Assembly (NCBI RefSeq): GCF_020217005.1
Contig: NZ_JAIWOI010000139.1
Location: 1 to 10,000, forward strand
Direction: 5' to 3'
From: Rheinheimera sp.
GTDB lineage: Bacteria > Pseudomonadota > Gammaproteobacteria > Enterobacterales > Alteromonadaceae
DNA length: 10,000 nucleotides
The notes beneath the pieces were generated by a model. The model was not told the origin of the DNA. It did no database searches and saw nothing but the letters and a program-made list of their open reading frames with translations. Numbering within the stretch: position 1 is the stretch's first letter; every line of letters begins with the position of its first letter. The position numbers were made by a program, and so were the translations under genes. Positions 152 to 10,000 of the stretch are shown here, piece by piece.

Positions 152-436
152 TCACAATCTGGCTAACGCAGCTTTGTATACCTGATTGCGATCTCTTTTC
201 CCTACGGCCACAACAGAGACCACAATCTCCAGATCCCGAACCTGATACACAAGGCGGAAACCTGCGCTCTGTAACTTGATTTTGTAACAGTCTTTCATGC
301 CTCTAAGCTTAGCGGATTCAACATGGGGAGCCTCAAGGCGCTCTATCAACTTTTTCTTAAATTGTTCCCGGATCAAAGGTTCCAGCTTTTTCCATTCTTT
401 CAAAGCTTCTTCTTTAAAAACCAGCTTATAGGTCAT
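152..436 (-). CDS. stbE: RelE/StbE-family type II toxin (mRNA interferase)
   Basis: Small basic toxin of the RelE superfamily, predicted to cut mRNA in the ribosomal A site and block translation when the antitoxin is degraded. I chose the ATG at 436 (protein starts MTYKLVFKEE, 94 residues). The upstream ATG at 478 adds 14 residues that are not family-like and lie deep inside the antitoxin gene. With this start, Lys52, Lys54, Arg61, Arg81 and Tyr87 fall at the same numbers as the catalytic residues of E. coli RelE (family knowledge), within the segments CYKIKL, GFRLVYQV and GKRDRNQVY. The toxin is therefore probably active. The gene overlaps the upstream antitoxin by 11 nt, the usual arrangement for coupled translation. 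The protein looks most like StbE/RelE2-type toxins. The fold call is firm, but the exact substrate is inferred. Confidence 0.93.
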   Translation of the reverse strand: MTYKLVFKEEALKEWKKLEPLIREQFKKKLIERLEAPHVESAKLRGMKDCYKIKLQSAGFRLVYQVRDLEIVVSVVAVGKRDRNQVYKAALARL

Positions 437-680
437 TAATATCGACCTCAACCTCCGGCTGATTTGCTCTTGCCGCAACCAAAGCCGCCAGCTCTAAATC
501 CTCCAGGCGCTCCATTAACGCTTCATAAGCTGCGGCAGGCACGCAGTAAAAAGCAGGCTGATTATGACTAAGCACAGCGACAGGAAAACCCTCACCCTGC
601 GCTACTACCGCCATAGGGTTCTTTTTCAGTTCTGTAATACTGCAGGTTCGTTCCGCCAGAATACTGTGTACAGTTGCCAT
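426..680 (-). CDS. stbD: StbD/RelB-like antitoxin (Phd/YefM type)
   Basis: An 84-residue antitoxin that should neutralise the RelE-type toxin encoded directly downstream and repress the shared promoter. The N-terminal half carries the pattern typical of StbD/Phd-YefM DNA-binding antitoxins (SITELKKNPMAVVAQGEGFPVAVLSHNQPAFYCVPAAAYEAL, split here as residues about 14-33 and 34-55). The acidic C-terminal tail (residues about 56-84, rich in Glu and Asp) is the expected toxin-wrapping segment. The start at 680 is supported by AAGGTG on the minus strand (689-694), 8 nt upstream of the ATG. The stop overlaps the toxin start by 11 nt, so the pair is one operon with the antitoxin first. Such pairs often stabilise plasmids, integrons and genomic islands. 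That role here is inference. Confidence 0.92.
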   Translation of the reverse strand: MATVHSILAERTCSITELKKNPMAVVAQGEGFPVAVLSHNQPAFYCVPAAAYEALMERLEDLELAALVAARANQPEVEVDINDL

Positions 681-896: not shown

Positions 897-945
897 CCAT
901 CGCCACACTTAGAAATAAATAATTAGCAGACAACAAAGGCGATGG
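897..945. repeat. 8-bp inverted repeat flanking the helicase gene start region
   Basis: CCATCGCC (897-904) and GGCGATGG (938-945) are exact reverse complements 33 nt apart. The right arm contains the upstream alternative ATG (942) of the helicase gene. It could be an operator with separated half-sites, or an mRNA stem that hides that ATG. It may also be chance. Confidence 0.3.
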
Positions 946-962
946 GTATTCAAGCAGACCAG

Positions 963-969
963 AGAGGGA
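963..969 (+). promoter_or_regulatory. Ribosome binding site that decides the helicase start
   Basis: AGAGGGA ends 5 nt before the ATG at 975. The alternative in-frame ATG at 942 has only AAAGG placed 2 nt upstream, too close for normal initiation. The same ten-base string, AGAGGGATTT, is found before the next gene (5799-5808). Confidence 0.65.
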
Positions 970-974
970 TTTTT

Positions 975-3900
975 ATGGTTGTTGAGCAGCAGTTGGAACG
1001 TGCGCGTCTTGAATTACTCGATATGGGTCTTCGATCCAACCCCCAATTAAATTACCGCAGTGGCAGTAAATCCCTCGACATTATTGATGAACAATCTGCC
1101 AAGATTTTTCAGATGCTGGTTGAGCAGGAAAACACCCTTAGCTTTTTGCCACTGCCAGAAGCTTATCAGCAAAAAATTGCCGACAGCGAAGATGAAGGAA
1201 GCTTCTTTCAGTCGGACGACGACTCCGAATTACCGCCGCTTGATTTGTATCTGGAACAAAAGAAAGGCGCTGCCCGCTTTAGCGATAAATACCTGCAAAC
1301 AGGGCTGATACCAGCGAAGCTGGATAAAGCGCTGCTGAAACTCGAAACCGAAGCTCATACCATGCTGCAGGAACAAGGTGTCGAGGTTCTGTATCTGGCT
1401 CTTGGTTTTTTACAGTGGAATGAGCCCACCAACTCATCGGTTTCAAGGTATGCGCCGTTAATTCTGATCCCTGTCGAACTGACCCGATCTTCTGCCCGAG
1501 ACAGCTTCAAGTTACGTTACACAGGCGAAGAGCTGGGTTCAAACCTGACTCTGGCAGCGAAACTCAGAACAGAATTTAAGTTATTGCTGCCCACCTATTC
1601 TGATGAAATGACAGTCTCGGATTATTATCAGGCGGTAACAGATGCAATTGCGGCCCAACCTTCGTGGCGGGTGCATCAGGATAAAATTGGTTTAGGGCTG
1701 TTCTCTTTTGGCAAGTTTCAGATGTATATGGACCTTGACCCGTCCGGCTGGCCTGAAGGAAAAAAACCGTCTCAATTACCTTTGATTGGCCGTTTATTCC
1801 GGGATGGTTTTGACCACAATGCCGAGATTAACCCAGATGATCTGAATCATCCGGAAAAACTCCACTTAGTGAAAGACGCTGACTCCAGCCAGATTGAAGC
1901 TATCTTAGCCATGAAGTCTGGCGCTGACCTGATCATTCAAGGCCCGCCAGGTACAGGCAAATCCCAAACCATCACCAACATCATTGCTGAAGCCGTTGCT
2001 TTGGGTAAAAAAGTACTGTTTGTGGCGCAAAAAATGGCAGCACTTGAGGTGGTGAAAAAACGCCTTGATGAAACACATATGGGCTTTGCGGTACTGGAAC
2101 TGCATAGCCACAAAAGCACCAAAAAAGCTGTGCTGGAATCTATCGCTGAGTCGCTCGAACAAGGGCGACCCCAAACCGGAAACCGCCAGCAAGAGTTGTC
2201 AGATTTAGCAGAATCAAAAGCTTCACTGGATGCTTATGTGCATGCCATTCGGGCTCCAGTTTTGCGCAGTGGCCTCAATTACATTGAAGCTTTAGGCTCT
2301 TTATTGCAGCTAAAAACAAAGGATCCCGAAAGCTCTTTGCCAGCATTACCCTTTAGCTGTTTTGAACAATGGACAGCCGAGCAATACAGCAATGCCAGAA
2401 AGCTGGTGGCAGAATTAGTGCAGCAACTGGAACGGGTTGGTGTGCCTGCCGCTCACCCTTTTGCTATGTCTGGCCGCACTGATTTTTCTCCTGCATTGCA
2501 GCAAGCATTAACTTCAGCTTTAGCAGAAACAAGCCAATTGCTTCGCCAACTTGATGTGCAAACTCAAACCGTCAGCGTATTTCTGAAGCTTGAAAAACCA
2601 CAAAGCTTGCAACAAGTTAAACCACTGATCGCGACAACAAGCTGGCTATCCGAAGTGCCGGATCTTAAACAGGTTAAAGTAAATAACCCTTTATGGGCTG
2701 TTGAACAAAAGCGGATAGATAACGGCCTGGCTTGTTTAGCCAATTTCTTAACCTTAAAAGCCAGCTGCGAAGCGCACTTTATAGCTCAAGCGCTGGATGC
2801 CGATTTGCTGAGTATCCGCCAGGGCTTGATAGGTAAAACGGATAAATGGTGGCGCTTCCTGTCGTCCAGTTATCGACAAGCCAAAGCTAACTTGGCAGGG
2901 CTTTGGCGTGGCACTCTGCCCGCTTCGTCTGCTGACTGGCTCACTGCATTAGATACAGCCCTGGCTTACCAAAGTGCGAAAAAAGAGCTGGCCAGCTACA
3001 ACAGCATCTTGTCTGAAGTCTATGGAGCACAGTGGCAAGGCGAATTTTCAGAGCATGCTTACTTGACCCAAATCCATAGCTGGATCAGCACCTTTTATAC
3101 CAAGGTAAACCGTCTTGAATTGTCGCAGTCATTGGCTGAACTGATTGATACGGGCCTTGATAAAAAGCTGCTGCGCGATCAGGCGAACTCACTGACAACG
3201 CTTTGTAACGCTATCGCAGTGCAGGCACAAACGCTGCAAGAGCTGATACAAATCCACAACAGCAATCCAAACCACGATTTAGCACCCATGCAATTTACCC
3301 AGCTCAATGCTGTGTTAGAAGGCTGGAAAAACTCTGCCCTACTCTACGATTTCGCGCGCTACAACCAGATTATTCAGGCCTTTGAGCCTTATAACATCAA
3401 AGCTTTCACTGAACTGGCGAACTCATGGCATATAGCGCCAGACCTCTTAATGACAGTATTCGAACTAAGTTATTACCGAGGTTTGGTTGATCATGCCTAC
3501 GATAGTTCGGAAGCCATACGGCGCTTTGACCGCAATAAACATGAGCAAAGCCTGCGCGACTTTAAACGTATTGATGGCAACAGTTTGTTTTTCGCCCAGG
3601 AGCTGTTGGTAAACACCTTGTACGAGCGCTTACCCAAGAAAACAGCCAAAGGTGAAATGGAATTAGTGCTGCGCGAAATGGGCAAGAAAAAGCGCCATAT
3701 TCCTATCCGAAAACTGCTGGCTGAAGCCGGTAACGTAATTCAGCAAGTAAAACCTATTTTTATGATGAGCCCTATGTCCATCGCCACTTATCTGAAACAA
3801 GGTGCTTTGGATTTTGACCTGGTGATCTTTGACGAAGCCAGCCAAATTCCTGCCCCTGATGCCCTCGGCGCTATGCTGCGTGGGCGGCAGGTGATTGTGG

Positions 3901-5732
3901 TGGGTGACAGTAAGCAAATGCCACCAAGCAACTTGTTTGGTAAAGCCGTTGAACTGGAAGAAGAAGAGCTGGAAAGCAGCGCCACCGCAGAAATGGAAAG
4001 TATTCTGGCATTAATGGAAGCCCGTGGTGCGGCCAGCAAAATGCTGCGCTGGCACTACCGCTCCCGCCATGATTCGCTGATTGCAGTATCCAACGACCAG
4101 TTTTATAAAAACAAGTTAGTGGCCTTTCCAAGCCCGGGTTTTCACCCCGATGCAACTGGACTGAAGTTTCATCATTTACCGGAAACCCATTACGACAAAG
4201 GCGGTTCGCGCACCAATCCAGGTGAAGTAAAAGCTGTAGTAGCGGCCGTATTAAACCATGCGTTAAGCAAACCTCACCTGTCCTTAGGTGTGGTGGCTTT
4301 TAGCCTTTCACAGTGTGATGCCATATTGCTTGAGCTGGAAAAAGAGCGCCGCTTACACCCTGAAACCGACGAATTCTTTGCACGCCATGCTGGTGGCGAT
4401 GAGTTTTTTGTAAAGAATCTGGAGAACGTACAGGGCGATGAGCGCGACGTTATCTATATCAGTATTTGTTATGGCAAAACCAGCACAGGCCAACTCAGCC
4501 AAAATTTTGGTTTGTTGAATAAGCCAGGTGGGGAAAGGCGCTTAAACGTGTTGATCTCACGCGCACGGCTGGCGATGGAAGTCTTTGCCAACTTCAAAGG
4601 TGACGAACTGAAAGTGGAAGCAGACAGTCCTTTTGGTGTGCGCTCGCTGCAAATCTTTCTGCAATTTGCCGAATCAGGCCTGCTGAACAAAGCCCATGAA
4701 AAAGAGCAGGAACAAAACTTTGCTTTTGGTGCCCTGCTACATCAGGCGATCCAGCGATTAGGTTATCAGGTAGCCACCCGGGTCGGCAGTCAGGGTTACT
4801 ACATCGACTTAGCCATTAAACATCCTGAAGACCCCAGTAAATTTGTATTGGCACTGGAATACGACGGCGCAGGTTATTACCAGGCAGCTTCAGCCCGCGA
4901 CCGTGAACGGCTGCGGCAAAGTGTGCTGGAAGGCCTTGGCTGGAGCTTTGGTCGTATTTGGTCCACTGACTGGTTTCGGGATCCAGAGGCTGAATTACAT
5001 CGCTTAAAAGTACTGATAGATAAAGCCATAACACAGCATAACGAGCTGATGGTAGCTATGGCGGCACAAGCCACTAGCACCAGACAAGTGAAACACCAGG
5101 TTGCTGCGCCAGAGCTTGTTGCAGCGCCTATTCTGCGGGTAGAGGAAGAACAACCAGAGTTTGAAGCCTGCACTACGCCCTATAAAAAGGCTGATGTGTC
5201 TAAGCTAAATATTCCTCATGTCGATGATTTCAGTGCCATTCCTCTGAGTACGTTGGTGCATGCAGTAGAACGTATTGTTGAAACCGAATACCCAATATTC
5301 GCCAGCTTAGTGGCCACTCGATTAGCTAATGCTGCTGGCTTAACACGAGTTGGTGCCAAAATTAAACGCACAGTTGACCAAGCCATCGAAAGTGCCGTTG
5401 CCAAAGGATTGATCCAGCTCGATAAAGACGAAGTGTTATGGCCGCAGGGCCGCAGCACAGTCAAATTAAGAAACTGGAACAGCGCCGACACTGCCACCCG
5501 CAAGCTTGAAAACGTCTGTGATGCCGAACTGACCAATGCCTTATTACTGACAGTACAAGACGCCCACGCTATCAGCGTAACGGATGCAGCCTCTGCGGCT
5601 TTGGGCTTATTAGGTTTTCAGCGCGCAACGGCTCAGGCGGCAGACCGGATGGCGAAGTTGGCGCAGGTTCAGTGTGATAAGGGTGTGTTGGTTTGTGAGA
5701 ATGAGCGGTTGAAGATTGCAGGCAGTAAATAA
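975..5732 (+). CDS. DUF4011-SF1 helicase-MTES_1575 nuclease-DUF3320 defence protein
   Basis: Predicted cytosolic DNA helicase-nuclease of 1585 residues, from the ATG at 975 (an ATG at 942 would add 11). Residues about 1-210 resemble DUF4011 (GFLQW, APLILIPVEL). Walker A GPPGTGKS is at 323-330. A long, mostly helical insertion follows, about 400-930. Then come Walker B VIFDEAS (Asp953, Glu954), motif III GDSKQ (977-981), WHYRSR (1026-1031), ENVQGDERD (from 1150) and LNVLISRAR (1190-1198), which is the Upf1/Dna2-like SF1 (AAA_11/AAA_12) set. The MTES_1575 Vsr-like nuclease domain is about 1245-1350, with Asp1278, EYDG at 1295-1298, a SARDR stretch and GWSFGRIWSTDWF. DUF3320 is about 1420-1490. 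This domain order is known in single-gene antiphage helicases (from memory, the Hhe type). All helicase motifs look intact and there is no frameshift. The family call is firm, but a phage-defence role is inferred from architecture and neighbours. Confidence 0.9.
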   Translation: MVVEQQLERARLELLDMGLRSNPQLNYRSGSKSLDIIDEQSAKIFQMLVEQENTLSFLPLPEAYQQKIADSEDEGSFFQSDDDSELPPLDLYLEQKKGAARFSDKYLQTGLIPAKLDKALLKLETEAHTMLQEQGVEVLYLALGFLQWNEPTNSSVSRYAPLILIPVELTRSSARDSFKLRYTGEELGSNLTLAAKLRTEFKLLLPTYSDEMTVSDYYQAVTDAIAAQPSWRVHQDKIGLGLFSFGKFQMYMDLDPSGWPEGKKPSQLPLIGRLFRDGFDHNAEINPDDLNHPEKLHLVKDADSSQIEAILAMKSGADLIIQGPPGTGKSQTITNIIAEAVALGKKVLFVAQKMAALEVVKKRLDETHMGFAVLELHSHKSTKKAVLESIAESLEQGRPQTGNRQQELSDLAESKASLDAYVHAIRAPVLRSGLNYIEALGSLLQLKTKDPESSLPALPFSCFEQWTAEQYSNARKLVAELVQQLERVGVPAAHPFAMSGRTDFSPALQQALTSALAETSQLLRQLDVQTQTVSVFLKLEKPQSLQQVKPLIATTSWLSEVPDLKQVKVNNPLWAVEQKRIDNGLACLANFLTLKASCEAHFIAQALDADLLSIRQGLIGKTDKWWRFLSSSYRQAKANLAGLWRGTLPASSADWLTALDTALAYQSAKKELASYNSILSEVYGAQWQGEFSEHAYLTQIHSWISTFYTKVNRLELSQSLAELIDTGLDKKLLRDQANSLTTLCNAIAVQAQTLQELIQIHNSNPNHDLAPMQFTQLNAVLEGWKNSALLYDFARYNQIIQAFEPYNIKAFTELANSWHIAPDLLMTVFELSYYRGLVDHAYDSSEAIRRFDRNKHEQSLRDFKRIDGNSLFFAQELLVNTLYERLPKKTAKGEMELVLREMGKKKRHIPIRKLLAEAGNVIQQVKPIFMMSPMSIATYLKQGALDFDLVIFDEASQIPAPDALGAMLRGRQVIVVGDSKQMPPSNLFGKAVELEEEELESSATAEMESILALMEARGAASKMLRWHYRSRHDSLIAVSNDQFYKNKLVAFPSPGFHPDATGLKFHHLPETHYDKGGSRTNPGEVKAVVAAVLNHALSKPHLSLGVVAFSLSQCDAILLELEKERRLHPETDEFFARHAGGDEFFVKNLENVQGDERDVIYISICYGKTSTGQLSQNFGLLNKPGGERRLNVLISRARLAMEVFANFKGDELKVEADSPFGVRSLQIFLQFAESGLLNKAHEKEQEQNFAFGALLHQAIQRLGYQVATRVGSQGYYIDLAIKHPEDPSKFVLALEYDGAGYYQAASARDRERLRQSVLEGLGWSFGRIWSTDWFRDPEAELHRLKVLIDKAITQHNELMVAMAAQATSTRQVKHQVAAPELVAAPILRVEEEQPEFEACTTPYKKADVSKLNIPHVDDFSAIPLSTLVHAVERIVETEYPIFASLVATRLANAAGLTRVGAKIKRTVDQAIESAVAKGLIQLDKDEVLWPQGRSTVKLRNWNSADTATRKLENVCDAELTNALLLTVQDAHAISVTDAASAALGLLGFQRATAQAADRMAKLAQVQCDKGVLVCENERLKIAGSK

Positions 5733-5734
5733 AA

Positions 5735-5765
5735 CAAGTTAAAACTTGAGGCAAGCCTTTTTATG
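5735..5765 (+). terminator. Weak hairpin plus T-run after the helicase gene
   Basis: CAAGTT (5735-5740) and AACTTG (5743-5748) are inverted repeats separated by only 2 nt. An alternative small stem, CTTG-AGG-CAAG (5745-5755), is followed by CC and five T residues (5758-5762). The stems are short, so at best this is a leaky terminator. No promoter pair was found in the 80-nt gap, so read-through into the next gene is likely. Confidence 0.22.
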
Positions 5766-5798
5766 TGCTCGAAGGACCACTAAGACTATAGGTAAATT

Positions 5799-5805
5799 AG
5801 AGGGA
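5799..5805 (+). promoter_or_regulatory. Ribosome binding site of the RloC-like gene
   Basis: AGAGGGA lies 7 nt upstream of the ATG at 5813. AGAGGGATTT (5799-5808) is identical to the string before the helicase start (963-972). Confidence 0.65.
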
Positions 5806-5812
5806 TTTAGTA

Positions 5813-7987
5813 ATGATAAATAAAATAACAATTCAAGGAGTGGCTAGCTATTCAAATAACACGGCCCAAGAAATATCAAGTTTAAGAAGAATTAACTGCT
5901 TCTATGGTTTGAATGGATCAGGCAAATCAACAATAGCCAAATACTTACAATATCCCAGTGAAATAGACTATTTATCATGTTCCATGACGCCAAAGTTGAG
6001 CGAAGGCATTTACGTATATAATCAAAAATTTGTTAAAGACAACTTTTGGGACAGTAAAGATCAACCAGGAGTTTTTACTGTCAATAAAGGTAATGTCGAG
6101 GCGGAACAAGCCATTGAATTAGCTGAACAAGAAATAAACAAGCTAGCTGCCGAACGTGATCAAATTTCAAGCAAAGCCGAAATTATTAAGAAACAAAAAG
6201 AAGCAGAGCAAACTAAACTTGAAAACAAAATTTGGTTAGAAAAAGATAAATTCGTCAAAACACCACTAGAGTTTTGTTTAGAAAACAAACAGCGTAAAAA
6301 CTTATTTCTTGATGCTGTAAAACAGGCTAGTGTTGCTGATACAGAAGTGACGATGGAAAGTCTTTTTGACCAAGCTTTAGAACTTGAAAAACCAGACTTA
6401 TCGCCCAAAAAGTTGTTATCTTTAATTAGTTTTGATGGCAAGTTAGTCGAAACAAGTAGAATAAATCATGAAGTCATAGTTGGTTCTTCAGAATCGTACC
6501 TTGCAGAATTAATTGAAAAGATAGGCCACTCAGACTGGGTTCGGGATGGACTTTCTCACTACGAAAACTCAGAAGGTGTATGTCCATTTTGTCAAGAAAT
6601 ACCGGAAAAGGATTTTGAATCAAATCTTAAGGCTCTTTTTGATGAGACTTATCAGATAAAGTGCAAAGAAGTTGAAGCAAACCGTGATGCCTATGAACTT
6701 GCTATAAATGACATTGAAGCAACCTTGTCTTCAGAAAATTTCTATGACAGCTATGTAACTGAGAGTGCGGAATTTGCTGTCGCAAAAGCTGAACTGCTCA
6801 CTTGTTGTCGTGCAAACTTAACGCTATTAAAAGATAAAGTATCAAAACCGAGTAACATAGTTGGGTTGAATGACACTACTAACTATTTAGAGAAATTAAA
6901 TCGCTGCATTGAAGAAATTAACAGAAAAATCAATGACTTTAATAGCCGTATTACTAGTAAGCCACAAATTCAAAAAAAGATTAAAAGTCAATTTTGGCAG
7001 GTACACAAGCGAACCTATAAAGCTGCAATTGAGTTGACAGAAGAAAATTTAAACAGCCTTGATCAGCAACTTGACACTCTGAGAGAGCAATATAGGCAAA
7101 ACAAAGAAGCAATAACTAAACAGCAGGTAGTAATTGTTGAACAAAGAAAACAAACAACGAATGTTGATACATCAATTCAAAATATAAGGACTACTTTATC
7201 AAGCGTTGGTGTAGAAGATTTTCATATAGATAAAGTTGAGGGTACTGAAGCTAGATACAAGATTGTTAGAAAAAGTGGTGCCACGGAAAACGTTTACGAG
7301 ACCTTGAGTGAGGGCGAGAAAACGTTAATTACCTTCCTTTATTTTTTAGAACAGTGTAAAGGACTACTTAAACCTGATTCGGCACTGGGCATAGCTGATA
7401 AAATCATTGTTATCGATGATCCTGTTTCAAGCTTATCTCACAACTTTATATATGAGATAGCAACGCTAATTCAGAAAGAAATAATTAAGAAACCTTTTAA
7501 GCAAGTTTTTTTATTGACCCACAATTTATTCTTCTTTCATGAGATAATGAATTTGTCAGGCTTAAAACAAGAAGACTTTGAACAACACTATGCTTTGTTT
7601 AGAGTTAGAAAAGATGAATACAGCAAAATATCTTCAATTCAACGGAATGACATCAGAAACGAATATGACGGTTACTGGCAAGTAATTAGAGACGCGAAGG
7701 CTGACAGAATCTGCAGTCCAATATTGCCAAATGCCATGAGAAATATTTTAGAACATTTCTTTTCGTTCGTTCAAAAGAAAGACAAGCTATCAGACATACT
7801 AACTAACTTAGGTGATGAACATAATAACTTCAGACCATTATTGAGGTATATCAGCAGAGGCTCTCACTCTGACATGGTCAACCTAACCGATTTTGGAGAT
7901 CTCGATGCTGTAAGATTCATAAACATATTCAAAGAAGTATTCGTGAGAGCTGAATACGAAGATCACTATAACAAGATGATTAAATGA
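5813..7987 (+). CDS. RloC/PrrC-like ABC ATPase, candidate zinc-hook anticodon nuclease
   Basis: A 724-residue AAA_13-type ATPase. Visible parts in order: Walker A GLNGSGKST (32-40); the segment VYNQKFVKDNFW with PGVFTV, typical of PrrC/RloC N-termini; coiled coil from about 95; CPFC (Cys257, Cys260), a Rad50/RloC-like zinc hook; more coiled coil at about 285-305, 360-385 and 410-450; ABC signature LSEGEK (498-503); Walker B VIDDPVSSLS (Asp535, Asp536); and H-loop LLTHN (His570). The C-terminal NAMRNILEHFF and RGSHSD supply Arg643, Glu647 and His685, matching in order and spacing the Arg-Glu-His triad of PrrC (Arg320, Glu324, His356) and the similar RloC triad. Known RloC proteins excise the wobble nucleotide of tRNA after DNA damage or anti-restriction. 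The gene follows the helicase by 80 nt, probably in one transcript, but is much more AT-rich. Alternative: another AAA_13 defence ATPase (PtuA-like), though no HNH partner is present. Nuclease activity is inferred. Confidence 0.75.
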   Translation: MINKITIQGVASYSNNTAQEISSLRRINCFYGLNGSGKSTIAKYLQYPSEIDYLSCSMTPKLSEGIYVYNQKFVKDNFWDSKDQPGVFTVNKGNVEAEQAIELAEQEINKLAAERDQISSKAEIIKKQKEAEQTKLENKIWLEKDKFVKTPLEFCLENKQRKNLFLDAVKQASVADTEVTMESLFDQALELEKPDLSPKKLLSLISFDGKLVETSRINHEVIVGSSESYLAELIEKIGHSDWVRDGLSHYENSEGVCPFCQEIPEKDFESNLKALFDETYQIKCKEVEANRDAYELAINDIEATLSSENFYDSYVTESAEFAVAKAELLTCCRANLTLLKDKVSKPSNIVGLNDTTNYLEKLNRCIEEINRKINDFNSRITSKPQIQKKIKSQFWQVHKRTYKAAIELTEENLNSLDQQLDTLREQYRQNKEAITKQQVVIVEQRKQTTNVDTSIQNIRTTLSSVGVEDFHIDKVEGTEARYKIVRKSGATENVYETLSEGEKTLITFLYFLEQCKGLLKPDSALGIADKIIVIDDPVSSLSHNFIYEIATLIQKEIIKKPFKQVFLLTHNLFFFHEIMNLSGLKQEDFEQHYALFRVRKDEYSKISSIQRNDIRNEYDGYWQVIRDAKADRICSPILPNAMRNILEHFFSFVQKKDKLSDILTNLGDEHNNFRPLLRYISRGSHSDMVNLTDFGDLDAVRFINIFKEVFVRAEYEDHYNKMIK

Positions 7988-8046
7988 TCAAAAAAAATCA
8001 CCATTTAACTTCAGTCAACTGTAAAACAAAAACACATTACTATACT

Positions 8047-8075
8047 CTTACACTTAAATACAAATCACTTATAAC
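8047..8075 (+). promoter_or_regulatory. Candidate sigma70 promoter for the ATPase/DUF4435 operon
   Basis: CTTACA (8047-8052) matches four of six -35 bases, and TATAAC (8070-8075) matches five of six -10 bases, with an exact 17-bp spacer. Transcription would begin near 8082 and leave a leader of about 170 nt before the ATPase start. AT-rich DNA gives many chance matches, so this is a candidate only. Confidence 0.35.
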
Positions 8076-8199
8076 ATAAATGAGACCAGAAATAAAAAAT
8101 TAAAAAAATTTACCCCTATAGAAAAGAAGAAACTCCCAACAACACTTTAACACATGGATATAGAATAATTAAAACTGCGCAATCAAAGGGATTTATTCA

Positions 8200-8250
8200 T
8201 TGGATAGCTGCAAAGAATCAATAGCCACCCGGCACGCAATGAGAACATAA
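8200..8250 (+). CDS. Possible 16-residue leader peptide (TTG start)
   Basis: A TTG at 8200, 8 nt after AAAGGGA (8185-8191), opens a frame encoding MDSCKESIATRHAMRT and ends with TAA at 8248-8250, 2 nt before the ATPase ATG at 8253. Its ribosome site nearly repeats the AGAGGGATTT string found before the two upstream genes. The ATPase gene itself has only a weak GAG (8241-8243) upstream, so translation of this leader could deliver ribosomes by termination-reinitiation. The peptide has no recognisable function. TTG starts are uncommon and the frame is short, so chance is a real alternative. Confidence 0.25.
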   Translation: MDSCKESIATRHAMRT

Positions 8251-8252
8251 AT

Positions 8253-9572
8253 ATGATAAAAGAATTTTATATAAAACAATTATACCAAGAAAGAGACGTT
8301 AGAATTAAGTTCTCTAGCAAGATAAAAATAATTGTAGCTGACAACGGCTACGGAAAAACAACAATATTAAATTCAATATATGCAATAATATCGGGAGACA
8401 TAGCAAAACTAAGGAAAATTGACTTCTCTGAACTTGGAATAATATTTGACGACAATATTGAAGTGTCATTTAAAAAGGAAGATTTTGAACCTGATCTAAT
8501 TTCTACAAAAGGCCATTCATTCGTCGAGCATTTAGAAAATAAACTAGGTAGAGATTTCATATTTCAACTTCTTGATGATGTAAAGCGGTACCCTTCTGCA
8601 TTAATGGAGCGTTCATCACTTTTTCGCCATGCATGCACAGAACTTGATTTACCGTCGAGTGTATTACGAGACTATCTTAGAGAACTAAGAGGAAGTAGAT
8701 TAGATAGAAAGGTAAATGCAAATACTCAAGATAAAATAGAGATGATCAAAAAGAAGCTTGGGCTGAAAGCACTTTATTTACCAACGTATCGTCGAGTTGA
8801 AGAAGATATTCGGGCGTTTAGTAAGTTTAGTGAAGACAGAGGAATGCGACTGACATCAATAAATTTTGGAATGGGCGATGTTCAACAGAGTATTAAACAA
8901 ATAACATCAGAAATATTGAGCTCATCTGTAAAGTGGTTCTCCAAGATAAATGGCCAAATGCTTTCACAATTAGTAAATGGGTTCTCTGTAACCGAAGAGA
9001 TGAAAAAATCTATATTGAGTAAAAAGGCTGTTGAAATTGTTTTAGAAAGAATTGGTAAAGACATTTCAGAATCGCATAAACAGCAAATACTATCTTTGGT
9101 GAGTAGTGGAGAAATATTAAAAGATCATGATCCTCTCATTTATTTTGTAAGCAATCTTTTAAATGTTTACCAACAGCAGCAAGAAAATGATGAAGCTCTT
9201 CAAAATTTTGCTCGATTCAGCAACAAATACCTTACAGATAAAGAAATAGTTTACAACGAAAGCAGCGTAACCATTGAGATAATAAGAAAGAAGAATGGGA
9301 AAACTGTGGATATAGAAAGCCTATCATCTGGAGAGAAACAAATAATATCTTTGTTTGCACTTTTATACTTACAGAAAAAAGAAGACCTAGCTATATTTTT
9401 TGACGAACCAGAACTCTCTTTATCTATAGAATGGCAGAAAACGCTACTGCCTGACATTATAAACTCTGGGAAATGTAAATTTTTATTTGCGACCACACAC
9501 TCTCCTTTTATATTTGATAATGAATTATCTGCTCATACAGTAGATCTAGCTCATTGCGTTAAGGAGCTATAA
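8253..9572 (+). CDS. ariA: AAA_15/21-type ATPase, PARIS AriA-like
   Basis: A 439-residue ABC/SMC-like ATPase, predicted to be the sensor and scaffold of a PARIS antiphage system. In PARIS (family knowledge), AriA assembles, holds the AriB nuclease inactive, and releases it when a phage anti-restriction protein such as Ocr is detected. Motifs seen: a Walker A-like ADNGYGKTT (29-37, Lys35), with Ala in place of the usual first Gly; LYLPTYRRVEED (174-185), typical of this ATPase group; a helical middle (about 205-330); ABC signature LSSGEK (357-362); Walker B IFFDEPELSL (381-390, Asp384 and Glu385); and H-loop TTHSPF (His416). The start at 8253 is the only in-frame ATG before an upstream stop at 8205. 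The DUF4435 partner follows 4 nt later, which is the main reason for the PARIS call. Alternative: an OLD-like ATPase of another two-gene system. The gene is strongly AT-rich. Confidence 0.75.
   Translation: MIKEFYIKQLYQERDVRIKFSSKIKIIVADNGYGKTTILNSIYAIISGDIAKLRKIDFSELGIIFDDNIEVSFKKEDFEPDLISTKGHSFVEHLENKLGRDFIFQLLDDVKRYPSALMERSSLFRHACTELDLPSSVLRDYLRELRGSRLDRKVNANTQDKIEMIKKKLGLKALYLPTYRRVEEDIRAFSKFSEDRGMRLTSINFGMGDVQQSIKQITSEILSSSVKWFSKINGQMLSQLVNGFSVTEEMKKSILSKKAVEIVLERIGKDISESHKQQILSLVSSGEILKDHDPLIYFVSNLLNVYQQQQENDEALQNFARFSNKYLTDKEIVYNESSVTIEIIRKKNGKTVDIESLSSGEKQIISLFALLYLQKKEDLAIFFDEPELSLSIEWQKTLLPDIINSGKCKFLFATTHSPFIFDNELSAHTVDLAHCVKEL
9561..9566 (+). promoter_or_regulatory. Ribosome binding site of the DUF4435 gene
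   Basis: AAGGAG lies inside the last codons of the ATPase gene, 10 nt before the ATG at 9577. It fixes the start of the downstream gene and indicates translation from the same mRNA as the ATPase. Confidence 0.65.
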
Positions 9573-9576
9573 TCTT

Positions 9577-10000
9577 ATGTCAAGAGTGGAAATGCTGGAA
9601 GCAGCTAGAAACAGGCTATCTGTCAAATTCATAGAATTTACAAAAGTAGTGTCGAATGGCAAATATGCTATTTTTTTCGAGGGTGAAGATGAAAAATATT
9701 ACTCACCGAGAATCAACATAATACGCTCAGACATAAAATGGATAGGCATTAATTGTTCAGGGAAAAAAAATGTTATAGAACTACGAAGAATGATTAGAAC
9801 TCATTTCGACTATGGAAACTCTTTATGTATGTTCTTTATCGATTCTGACTTTGATGATAACGCCAGTTACAAAAATCTTGGCGATATTTATTTGACACCT
9901 TGTTATTCGATAGAAAACTTATACACAAGCAGCAGCGCATTTTCTAGAATAATAAATGCTGAGTTTGGTGTACACGAATTTCATGAAAATGATCAATGCT
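9577..10000 (+). CDS. ariB: DUF4435 TOPRIM-like protein, PARIS AriB-like (partial at window end)
   Basis: The first 141 residues of a protein cut by the window edge; family members are about 300 residues. It shows the DUF4435 pattern: FFEGEDEKYY (Glu35 as the TOPRIM glutamate), MFFIDSDFDD (Asp89, Asp91 as the acidic pair), and CYSIENLY (109-116), a family hallmark. AriB of PARIS is a TOPRIM-type RNase reported to cut host lysine tRNA once freed from AriA, stopping growth of infected cells (established for E. coli PARIS). The start is supported by AAGGAG 10 nt upstream and by the 4-nt gap from the ATPase stop, so both are made from one transcript. The visible catalytic-type acids are intact, but the C-terminal half, which in the family is thought to contact tRNA, cannot be judged here. 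DUF4435 proteins also occur outside PARIS, so substrate and trigger are inferred. Confidence 0.78.
   Translation, partial: MSRVEMLEAARNRLSVKFIEFTKVVSNGKYAIFFEGEDEKYYSPRINIIRSDIKWIGINCSGKKNVIELRRMIRTHFDYGNSLCMFFIDSDFDDNASYKNLGDIYLTPCYSIENLYTSSSAFSRIINAEFGVHEFHENDQC

Follow-up and report, generated by a model that had tools for sequence, protein, structure and literature searches.

RloC of Geobacillus kaustophilus and Acinetobacter baylyi is defined, in the available portions of its description, by a split ABC domain with a CX2C hook and a length of 658–897 amino acids (aa), and its anticodon nuclease (ACNase) motif reads Arg-X3-Glu-X36–52-His, with Ser often preceding the His (PMC2610378). PrrC is described in the same partial sources (PMC2610378, PMC3874168) as a protein of 341–416 aa that lacks the coiled-coil insert and is linked to type Ic hsd genes. 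Two-gene PARIS systems, such as that of E. coli B185, are recognized by a score rule that combines an AAA_15 match of at least 32 bits or an AAA_21 match of at least 27 bits with a DUF4435 match of at least 27 bits (PMC9122126). Here we analyzed a 10,000-base stretch of Rheinheimera sp. DNA (hereafter, the window), which is an entire contig of a 3.92-Mb assembly (379 contigs, listed completeness 100%) and in which an rloC-type gene is followed on the same strand by the PARIS genes ariA and ariB. We consider it very probable that the window covers part of a defence island in which two independent, known anti-phage systems are neighbours by chance.

The open reading frames (ORFs) lie on one strand, and their coordinates and the gap of 265 nucleotides (nt) between the two systems were as the original prediction had given them. 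Motif conservation in the rloC product was read from a 22-row alignment of the window protein with 21 of 120 listed homologs, which are 32–80% identical to it; the homolog lists gave 120 of 287 and 120 of 4539. The features of the two systems are as follows:

5813–7987, plus strand: rloC-type gene, 724 aa, with a split ABC ATPase head, a coiled-coil insert carrying a zinc hook and a C-terminal HEPN-type anticodon-nuclease domain
5906–5929, plus strand: RloC Walker A GLNGSGKS, residues 32–39; G32, N34, G35, G37 and K38 invariant in the 22 rows
6581–6592, plus strand: RloC zinc hook CPFC, residues 257–260; C257, P258 and C260 invariant in the 22 rows
7304–7318, plus strand: RloC ABC signature LSEGE, residues 498–502; invariant in the 22 rows
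7739–7867, plus strand: ACNase triad R643-X3-E647-X37-H685, with S684 before the His; motif matched by script, in agreement with the published definition
7988–8252, plus strand: rloC–ariA gap, 265 nt, AT-rich (29.8% GC), with no terminator-like site and no relic of restriction-modification (R-M) genes found
8253–9572, plus strand: ariA, 439-aa ATPase of PARIS, matched by AAA_21, AAA_15, the AriA hidden Markov model (HMM) and a PDB structure
9577–9999, plus strand: ariB, first 141 aa of the DUF4435 nuclease, starting 4 nt past ariA, with its 3΄ end open at the contig end

Judged by its sequence, the 5813–7987 product is a member of RloC whose predicted catalytic motifs are intact. PDC-S06 was its best PADLOC model, with a full-length match of 788 bits, and Pfam AAA_13 matched along the whole length with 384.5 bits. 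The PADLOC PrrC profile matched the C-terminal part (37 bits, residues 456–712), and the source records of some relatives give the name ‘wobble nucleotide-excising tRNase’. In addition to the motifs listed above, Walker B residues D535 and D536 were invariant in the alignment, as were R643, N644, E647 and S684, and H685 was found in 21 of the 22 rows (Pro in the remaining one). In an AlphaFold2 model (mean predicted local distance difference test, pLDDT, 81.3; predicted template modelling score 0.47), in which the nuclease end is less certain, the head matched Rad50/SMC heads in a fold comparison covering mainly residues 1–624, and the hook C257-P-F-C260 was flanked by long helices at 92–146 and 356–445. 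All of the published sequence characteristics of RloC, namely the split ABC motifs, the CX2C hook within a coiled-coil insert, the triad and the size, were present. Those of PrrC were absent: the protein has 724 aa and an insert, and no hsd gene was found among the contig ORFs scanned.

The products of 8253–9572 and 9577–9999 form, on profile and motif evidence, a predicted PARIS pair of which AriB is seen in part. AriA matched Pfam AAA_21 (53.7 bits) and AAA_15 (41.3 bits) as well as the PADLOC AriA HMM (102.5 bits), and its residues 5–420 aligned with the solved E. coli AriA (PDB 8ux9; E = 1e-14, 58 bits). Walker A (residues 31–36), the signature LSSGEKQ (357–363) and D384-E385 are present, and N31, G32, G34, K35, residues 357–363, D384 and E385 were invariant in a 16-row alignment. 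AriB stops at 141 aa because the window is the whole contig and the gene runs off its end. This part matched DUF4435 with 76.3 bits (model positions 5–109 of 238) and the PADLOC AriB HMM with 67.4 bits, and with this partner 4 nt downstream of ariA the pair passed the published score rule. The reading frame is open and the part is 41–63% identical to six AriB proteins from viral contigs, whose full length is 313–326 aa. Residues E35, G36, D38, D89 and D91, in the patterns E35-G36-x-D38 and D89-x-D91, were invariant in a 10-row alignment; E35 is probably the counterpart of the Toprim catalytic E26 in E. coli AriB, a protein that lies outside this alignment. The modelled 141-aa part (pLDDT 66.8) had no PDB fold match at E ≤ 0.001, and searches of solved structures with it matched no AriB chain, one search giving short ETV6 matches only. 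Profile matches and motifs together support both families named in the original prediction, an RloC-like anticodon nuclease and an AriA/AriB-like PARIS pair.

By analogy with characterised relatives, the Rad50-like ATPase and zinc-hook coiled coil of RloC most likely keep the C-terminal HEPN-type RNase silent until DNA breaks, whereupon the RNase would excise the wobble nucleotide of a tRNA (PMC2610378, PMC3874168, as far as their available text goes). In PARIS, AriA would restrain AriB, a Toprim-type nuclease, and on binding a phage protein, for example an anti-restriction factor, would release it to cut tRNA, as described in the accessible part of PMC12409363. The PARIS family is further characterised by a hexameric AriA that retains AriB, by an Ocr-like protein as the releasing trigger and by tRNA-Lys as the cleaved target. 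The triggers, the tRNA cleavage and the abortive outcome of the window systems would accordingly resemble those of their relatives.

The rloC and ariAB genes look horizontally acquired. Their GC content is low (rloC 34.6%, ariA 32.9%; 33–35% for rloC and ariAB), and that of the upstream helicase gene is 48.3% (47–48% for the helicase gene and a toxin–antitoxin pair). At E ≤ 1e-40, AriA was found in one of 252 genomes of the order, which is the window’s own, and RloC in seven of the 252; the 18 further sampled genomes from its family or genus contained neither at this threshold. The AriA protein matched five plasmid records at 30–32% identity and no phage at E ≤ 1e-20, and the RloC protein matched 87 plasmid records, all below 60% identity, and eight phages. 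Near-identity searches gave no match for 5500–9999 in E. coli genomes, nor for the whole window in plasmids. In prophage records of Streptococcus phages Javan102, 105, 108 and 112, a distant, 27%-identical relative of the window RloC is labelled ‘translation-disabling ACNase’. RloC-family genes are carried by 52 IMG/VR viral contigs, and in ten of these contigs, 30–37 kb long, the gene ends 5.5–6.9 kb from one contig end; this recurrent position hints at a prophage cargo site.

We surveyed the neighbourhoods of RloC-family genes at 80 genome loci (the best 80 of 261), 52 viral loci, 15 loci from genomes of the class and 6 from genomes of the order. These sets overlap and flanks are often cut; both flanks reached 3 kb or more at 58/80, 33/52, 12/15 and 4/6 loci, respectively. 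No PARIS system was seen directly beside RloC at any of these loci. From the PARIS side, no RloC turned up in the vicinity of the 6 viral AriA loci or the 14 class AriB loci, some of which lie on short contigs. Because the first AriA and AriB profiles detected a PARIS gene at just 3 of the 14 class AriB loci, we built a broader AriB profile, which recovered 13 of the 14 in leave-one-out runs and revealed a pair undetected by the initial profiles. In this locus, L079, from a metagenome-assembled genome of Fibrobacter, an AAA_15 and DUF4435 pair (86.5 and 31.5 bits, above the published thresholds) begins 3.6 kb past rloC. The island at L079:5117–18066 reads, in order, SNF2-type helicase, rloC, PDC-S01, type III methyltransferase and the PARIS-like AAA_15 and DUF4435 genes; its gene order and gene set differ from those of the window.

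We further compared the two families at the level of whole genomes, as the original prediction had proposed. The class sample comprised 369 genomes including the window’s own, and co-occurrence was computed on the other 368. An RloC-family match was present in 15 of these, AriB in 14 and both in 4, compared with 0.57 expected (Fisher’s exact test, P = 0.0014). The underlying PDC-S06 count (16/369 with the window’s genome, E ≤ 1e-20) also takes in incomplete or remote matches, for example one of 91 residues at the edge of a contig in genome G032; when only the ten stronger RloC matches (at least 154 bits) were retained, both families were found in two genomes (0.38 expected, P = 0.05). In all four genomes RloC and AriB sit on different contigs, and defence-rich genomes may account for part of the excess. 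RloC was also raised together with DUF4011, an unrelated defence family (3 versus 0.94 expected, P = 0.06); for AriB with DUF4011 the count was 2 versus 0.88 expected (P = 0.22), and a single genome contained RloC, AriB and DUF4011.

For restriction, the type I HsdR profile HSDR_N, matched in 181 of the 369 class genomes, had no match in the window’s own assembly, in which N6_Mtase gave a single weak match (21 bits). This absence is not proof, because ribosomal protein S7 was also unmatched in the 379-contig assembly, which indicates gaps. In the gaps flanking rloC, blastn and six-frame comparison with the fetched loci revealed no R-M relic, the sole matches being to the 3΄ end of rloC genes and to the terminal part of the gene upstream. 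In the class sample, genomes with RloC-family genes were richer in HSDR_N (12/15 against a base of 181/368, P = 0.013); PARIS shows no clear link to R-M, because HSDR_N was present in 9 of 14 AriB genomes (P = 0.19). At 14 of the 80 RloC genome loci the fetched flank contained type I Hsd genes, and the published description, in its available part, gives linkage to type I or III R-M for 8 of 73 RloC members (PMC2610378). Of the four closest RloC relatives in the genome scan, L036 and L038 adjoin hsdM-hsdS, and L037 and L039 are without hsd genes in their flanks. The L036 relative (71% identity) belongs to a type I operon, hsdM-hsdS-rloC-Abi_2-hsdR (L036:7225–16588), and L038 (69% identity) reads hsdM-hsdS-rloC, with the contig ending shortly after. 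Directly 5΄ of the hsd-less rloC of L039 lies a gene for a 614-aa protein (L039:8071–9915), to which neither Pfam nor PADLOC gave a match at E ≤ 0.001. These observations suggest movement of RloC into R-M operons and out of them again, with the window copy probably an orphan.

Guarding of a type I R-M system, which the original prediction had raised, is a reasonable idea for these families in general, because PrrC and PARIS are called guardians of restriction in the available part of a review (PMC12707154); the HSDR_N result lends it no support in this genome. According to the same source, a variant of Ocr able to evade PARIS retains its block on EcoKI, and sensing by PARIS would therefore not need a restriction enzyme as such. 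A related possibility is that the window RloC is a toxin component, as PrrC is of EcoprrI, that became detached from its type I R-M operon and still responds to an R-M enzyme found elsewhere in the cell. The operons of L036 and L038 and the enrichment of HSDR_N in RloC-family genomes favour it. However, the absence of HSDR_N matches from the assembly, read with the caution that S7 imposes, the lone 21-bit N6_Mtase match and the lack of an hsd relic beside rloC point the other way. Furthermore, the available text of PMC3874168 reports that unlinked RloC is activated independently of hsd genes and that R-M deletions in A. baylyi left its activation unchanged. We therefore rate the detached toxin as very unlikely. 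We give the lowest probability to a PARIS pair that is broken, or that is another ATPase–DUF4435 pair with a different target. AriB ends with the contig after 141 aa and its profile had no match to PDB AriB chains, as such a reading would have it; however, the AriB part is open, resembles the six viral-contig proteins and keeps the acidic residues, and AriA keeps its motifs and aligns with the solved AriA over most of its length.

The layered backup envisaged in the original prediction fared less well than its gene calls. In such a two-tier tRNA-cutting module, RloC would answer DNA breakage and PARIS an anti-restriction protein, a phage escaping one would meet the other, and the RloC lesion may lie beyond phage tRNA repair. 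Several observations accord with it and weigh against a chance neighbourhood: rloC and ariAB adjoin on one strand with a similar low GC content, which would fit one shared import; RloC and AriB co-occur in genomes more often than independence predicts; and the distant Fibrobacter locus contains RloC and a rule-passing PARIS-like pair within 10 kb. The chance reading is further weakened by G032, in which both genes lie at contig ends and may be linked, and by the incomplete AriB, so that intactness of the PARIS pair is beyond demonstration here. Nevertheless, no direct adjacency was seen at the RloC loci surveyed, whose sets overlap and whose flanks are often cut, no RloC was seen near the viral AriA or class AriB loci, the co-occurring genes lie on different contigs (not decisive for G032) and RloC is also raised with DUF4011. 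We consequently regard the two-tier module as very unlikely, if slightly less so than the two preceding alternatives. About as improbable as the detached toxin is the more specific proposal that RloC and PARIS were imported together as a two-trigger, two-lesion unit into a cell without type I restriction, where PARIS would cut the anticodon stem on meeting an anti-restriction protein and RloC would remove the wobble nucleotide on phage DNA breakage. If this were true, a phage would need a resistant tRNA plus some means of bypassing damage that is difficult to repair; more generally, cooperation would mean joint action of two tRNA-cutting defences that differ in trigger and lesion. Two independent systems that came to lie side by side by chance is the reading we prefer: RloC and PARIS each look ordinary for their family here, and the related loci examined give little sign of a pairing beyond chance.

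The remainder of the window contains two further features:

942–5732, plus strand: DUF4011 helicase-nuclease gene, 1596 aa, with DUF4011, AAA_11, AAA_12, MTES_1575 and DUF3320 domains
155–680, minus strand: pair of a Phd/YefM antitoxin and a RelE/ParE toxin, close to the start of the contig, upstream of the plus-strand genes

The helicase-nuclease, rloC, ariA and ariB genes run head to tail. The 942–5732 product, encoded 80 nt 5΄ of rloC, is the third predicted defence gene of the window (PADLOC PDC-S37, 1876 bits); among NCBIfam models it scored 1369 bits with anti-phage ProA, which does not reach the cut-off of 1500, and 917 bits with Hhe (cut-off 2000). Scans of the window for tRNA genes and Rfam families gave no match at gathering scores.

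Compared with PARIS of E. coli B185, as far as PMC9122126 and PMC12409363 are available, the window has the same order of an ATPase gene followed by a DUF4435 gene, Pfam scores over the thresholds, the ATPase motifs and acidic residues of probable Toprim type; it differs in its partial AriB and in the low score of its AriA against the E. coli protein, just 58 bits. With PrrC of EcoprrI, the window protein shares an ABC ATPase and a C-terminal ACNase triad, the PrrC profile covering residues 456–712, but it is roughly twice as long, carries the coiled-coil/zinc-hook insert and lies on a contig without hsd genes. The closest likeness is to RloC of G. kaustophilus and A. baylyi (PMC2610378, PMC3874168, in the portions available): the split ABC ATPase, the CX2C hook in a coiled coil, the triad and a length within the published range are shared. 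PDC-S06 is a candidate label, and it is the motifs that tie this member to RloC; the likeness was drawn through family profiles and published motifs, not through the G. kaustophilus protein itself. The window copy differs in having a PARIS pair as its neighbour. As for most published members (PMC2610378), its contig is free of R-M genes, and a clear RloC member on such a contig, in an assembly in which no type I HsdR was detected, fits the published view of RloC as able to act without R-M.

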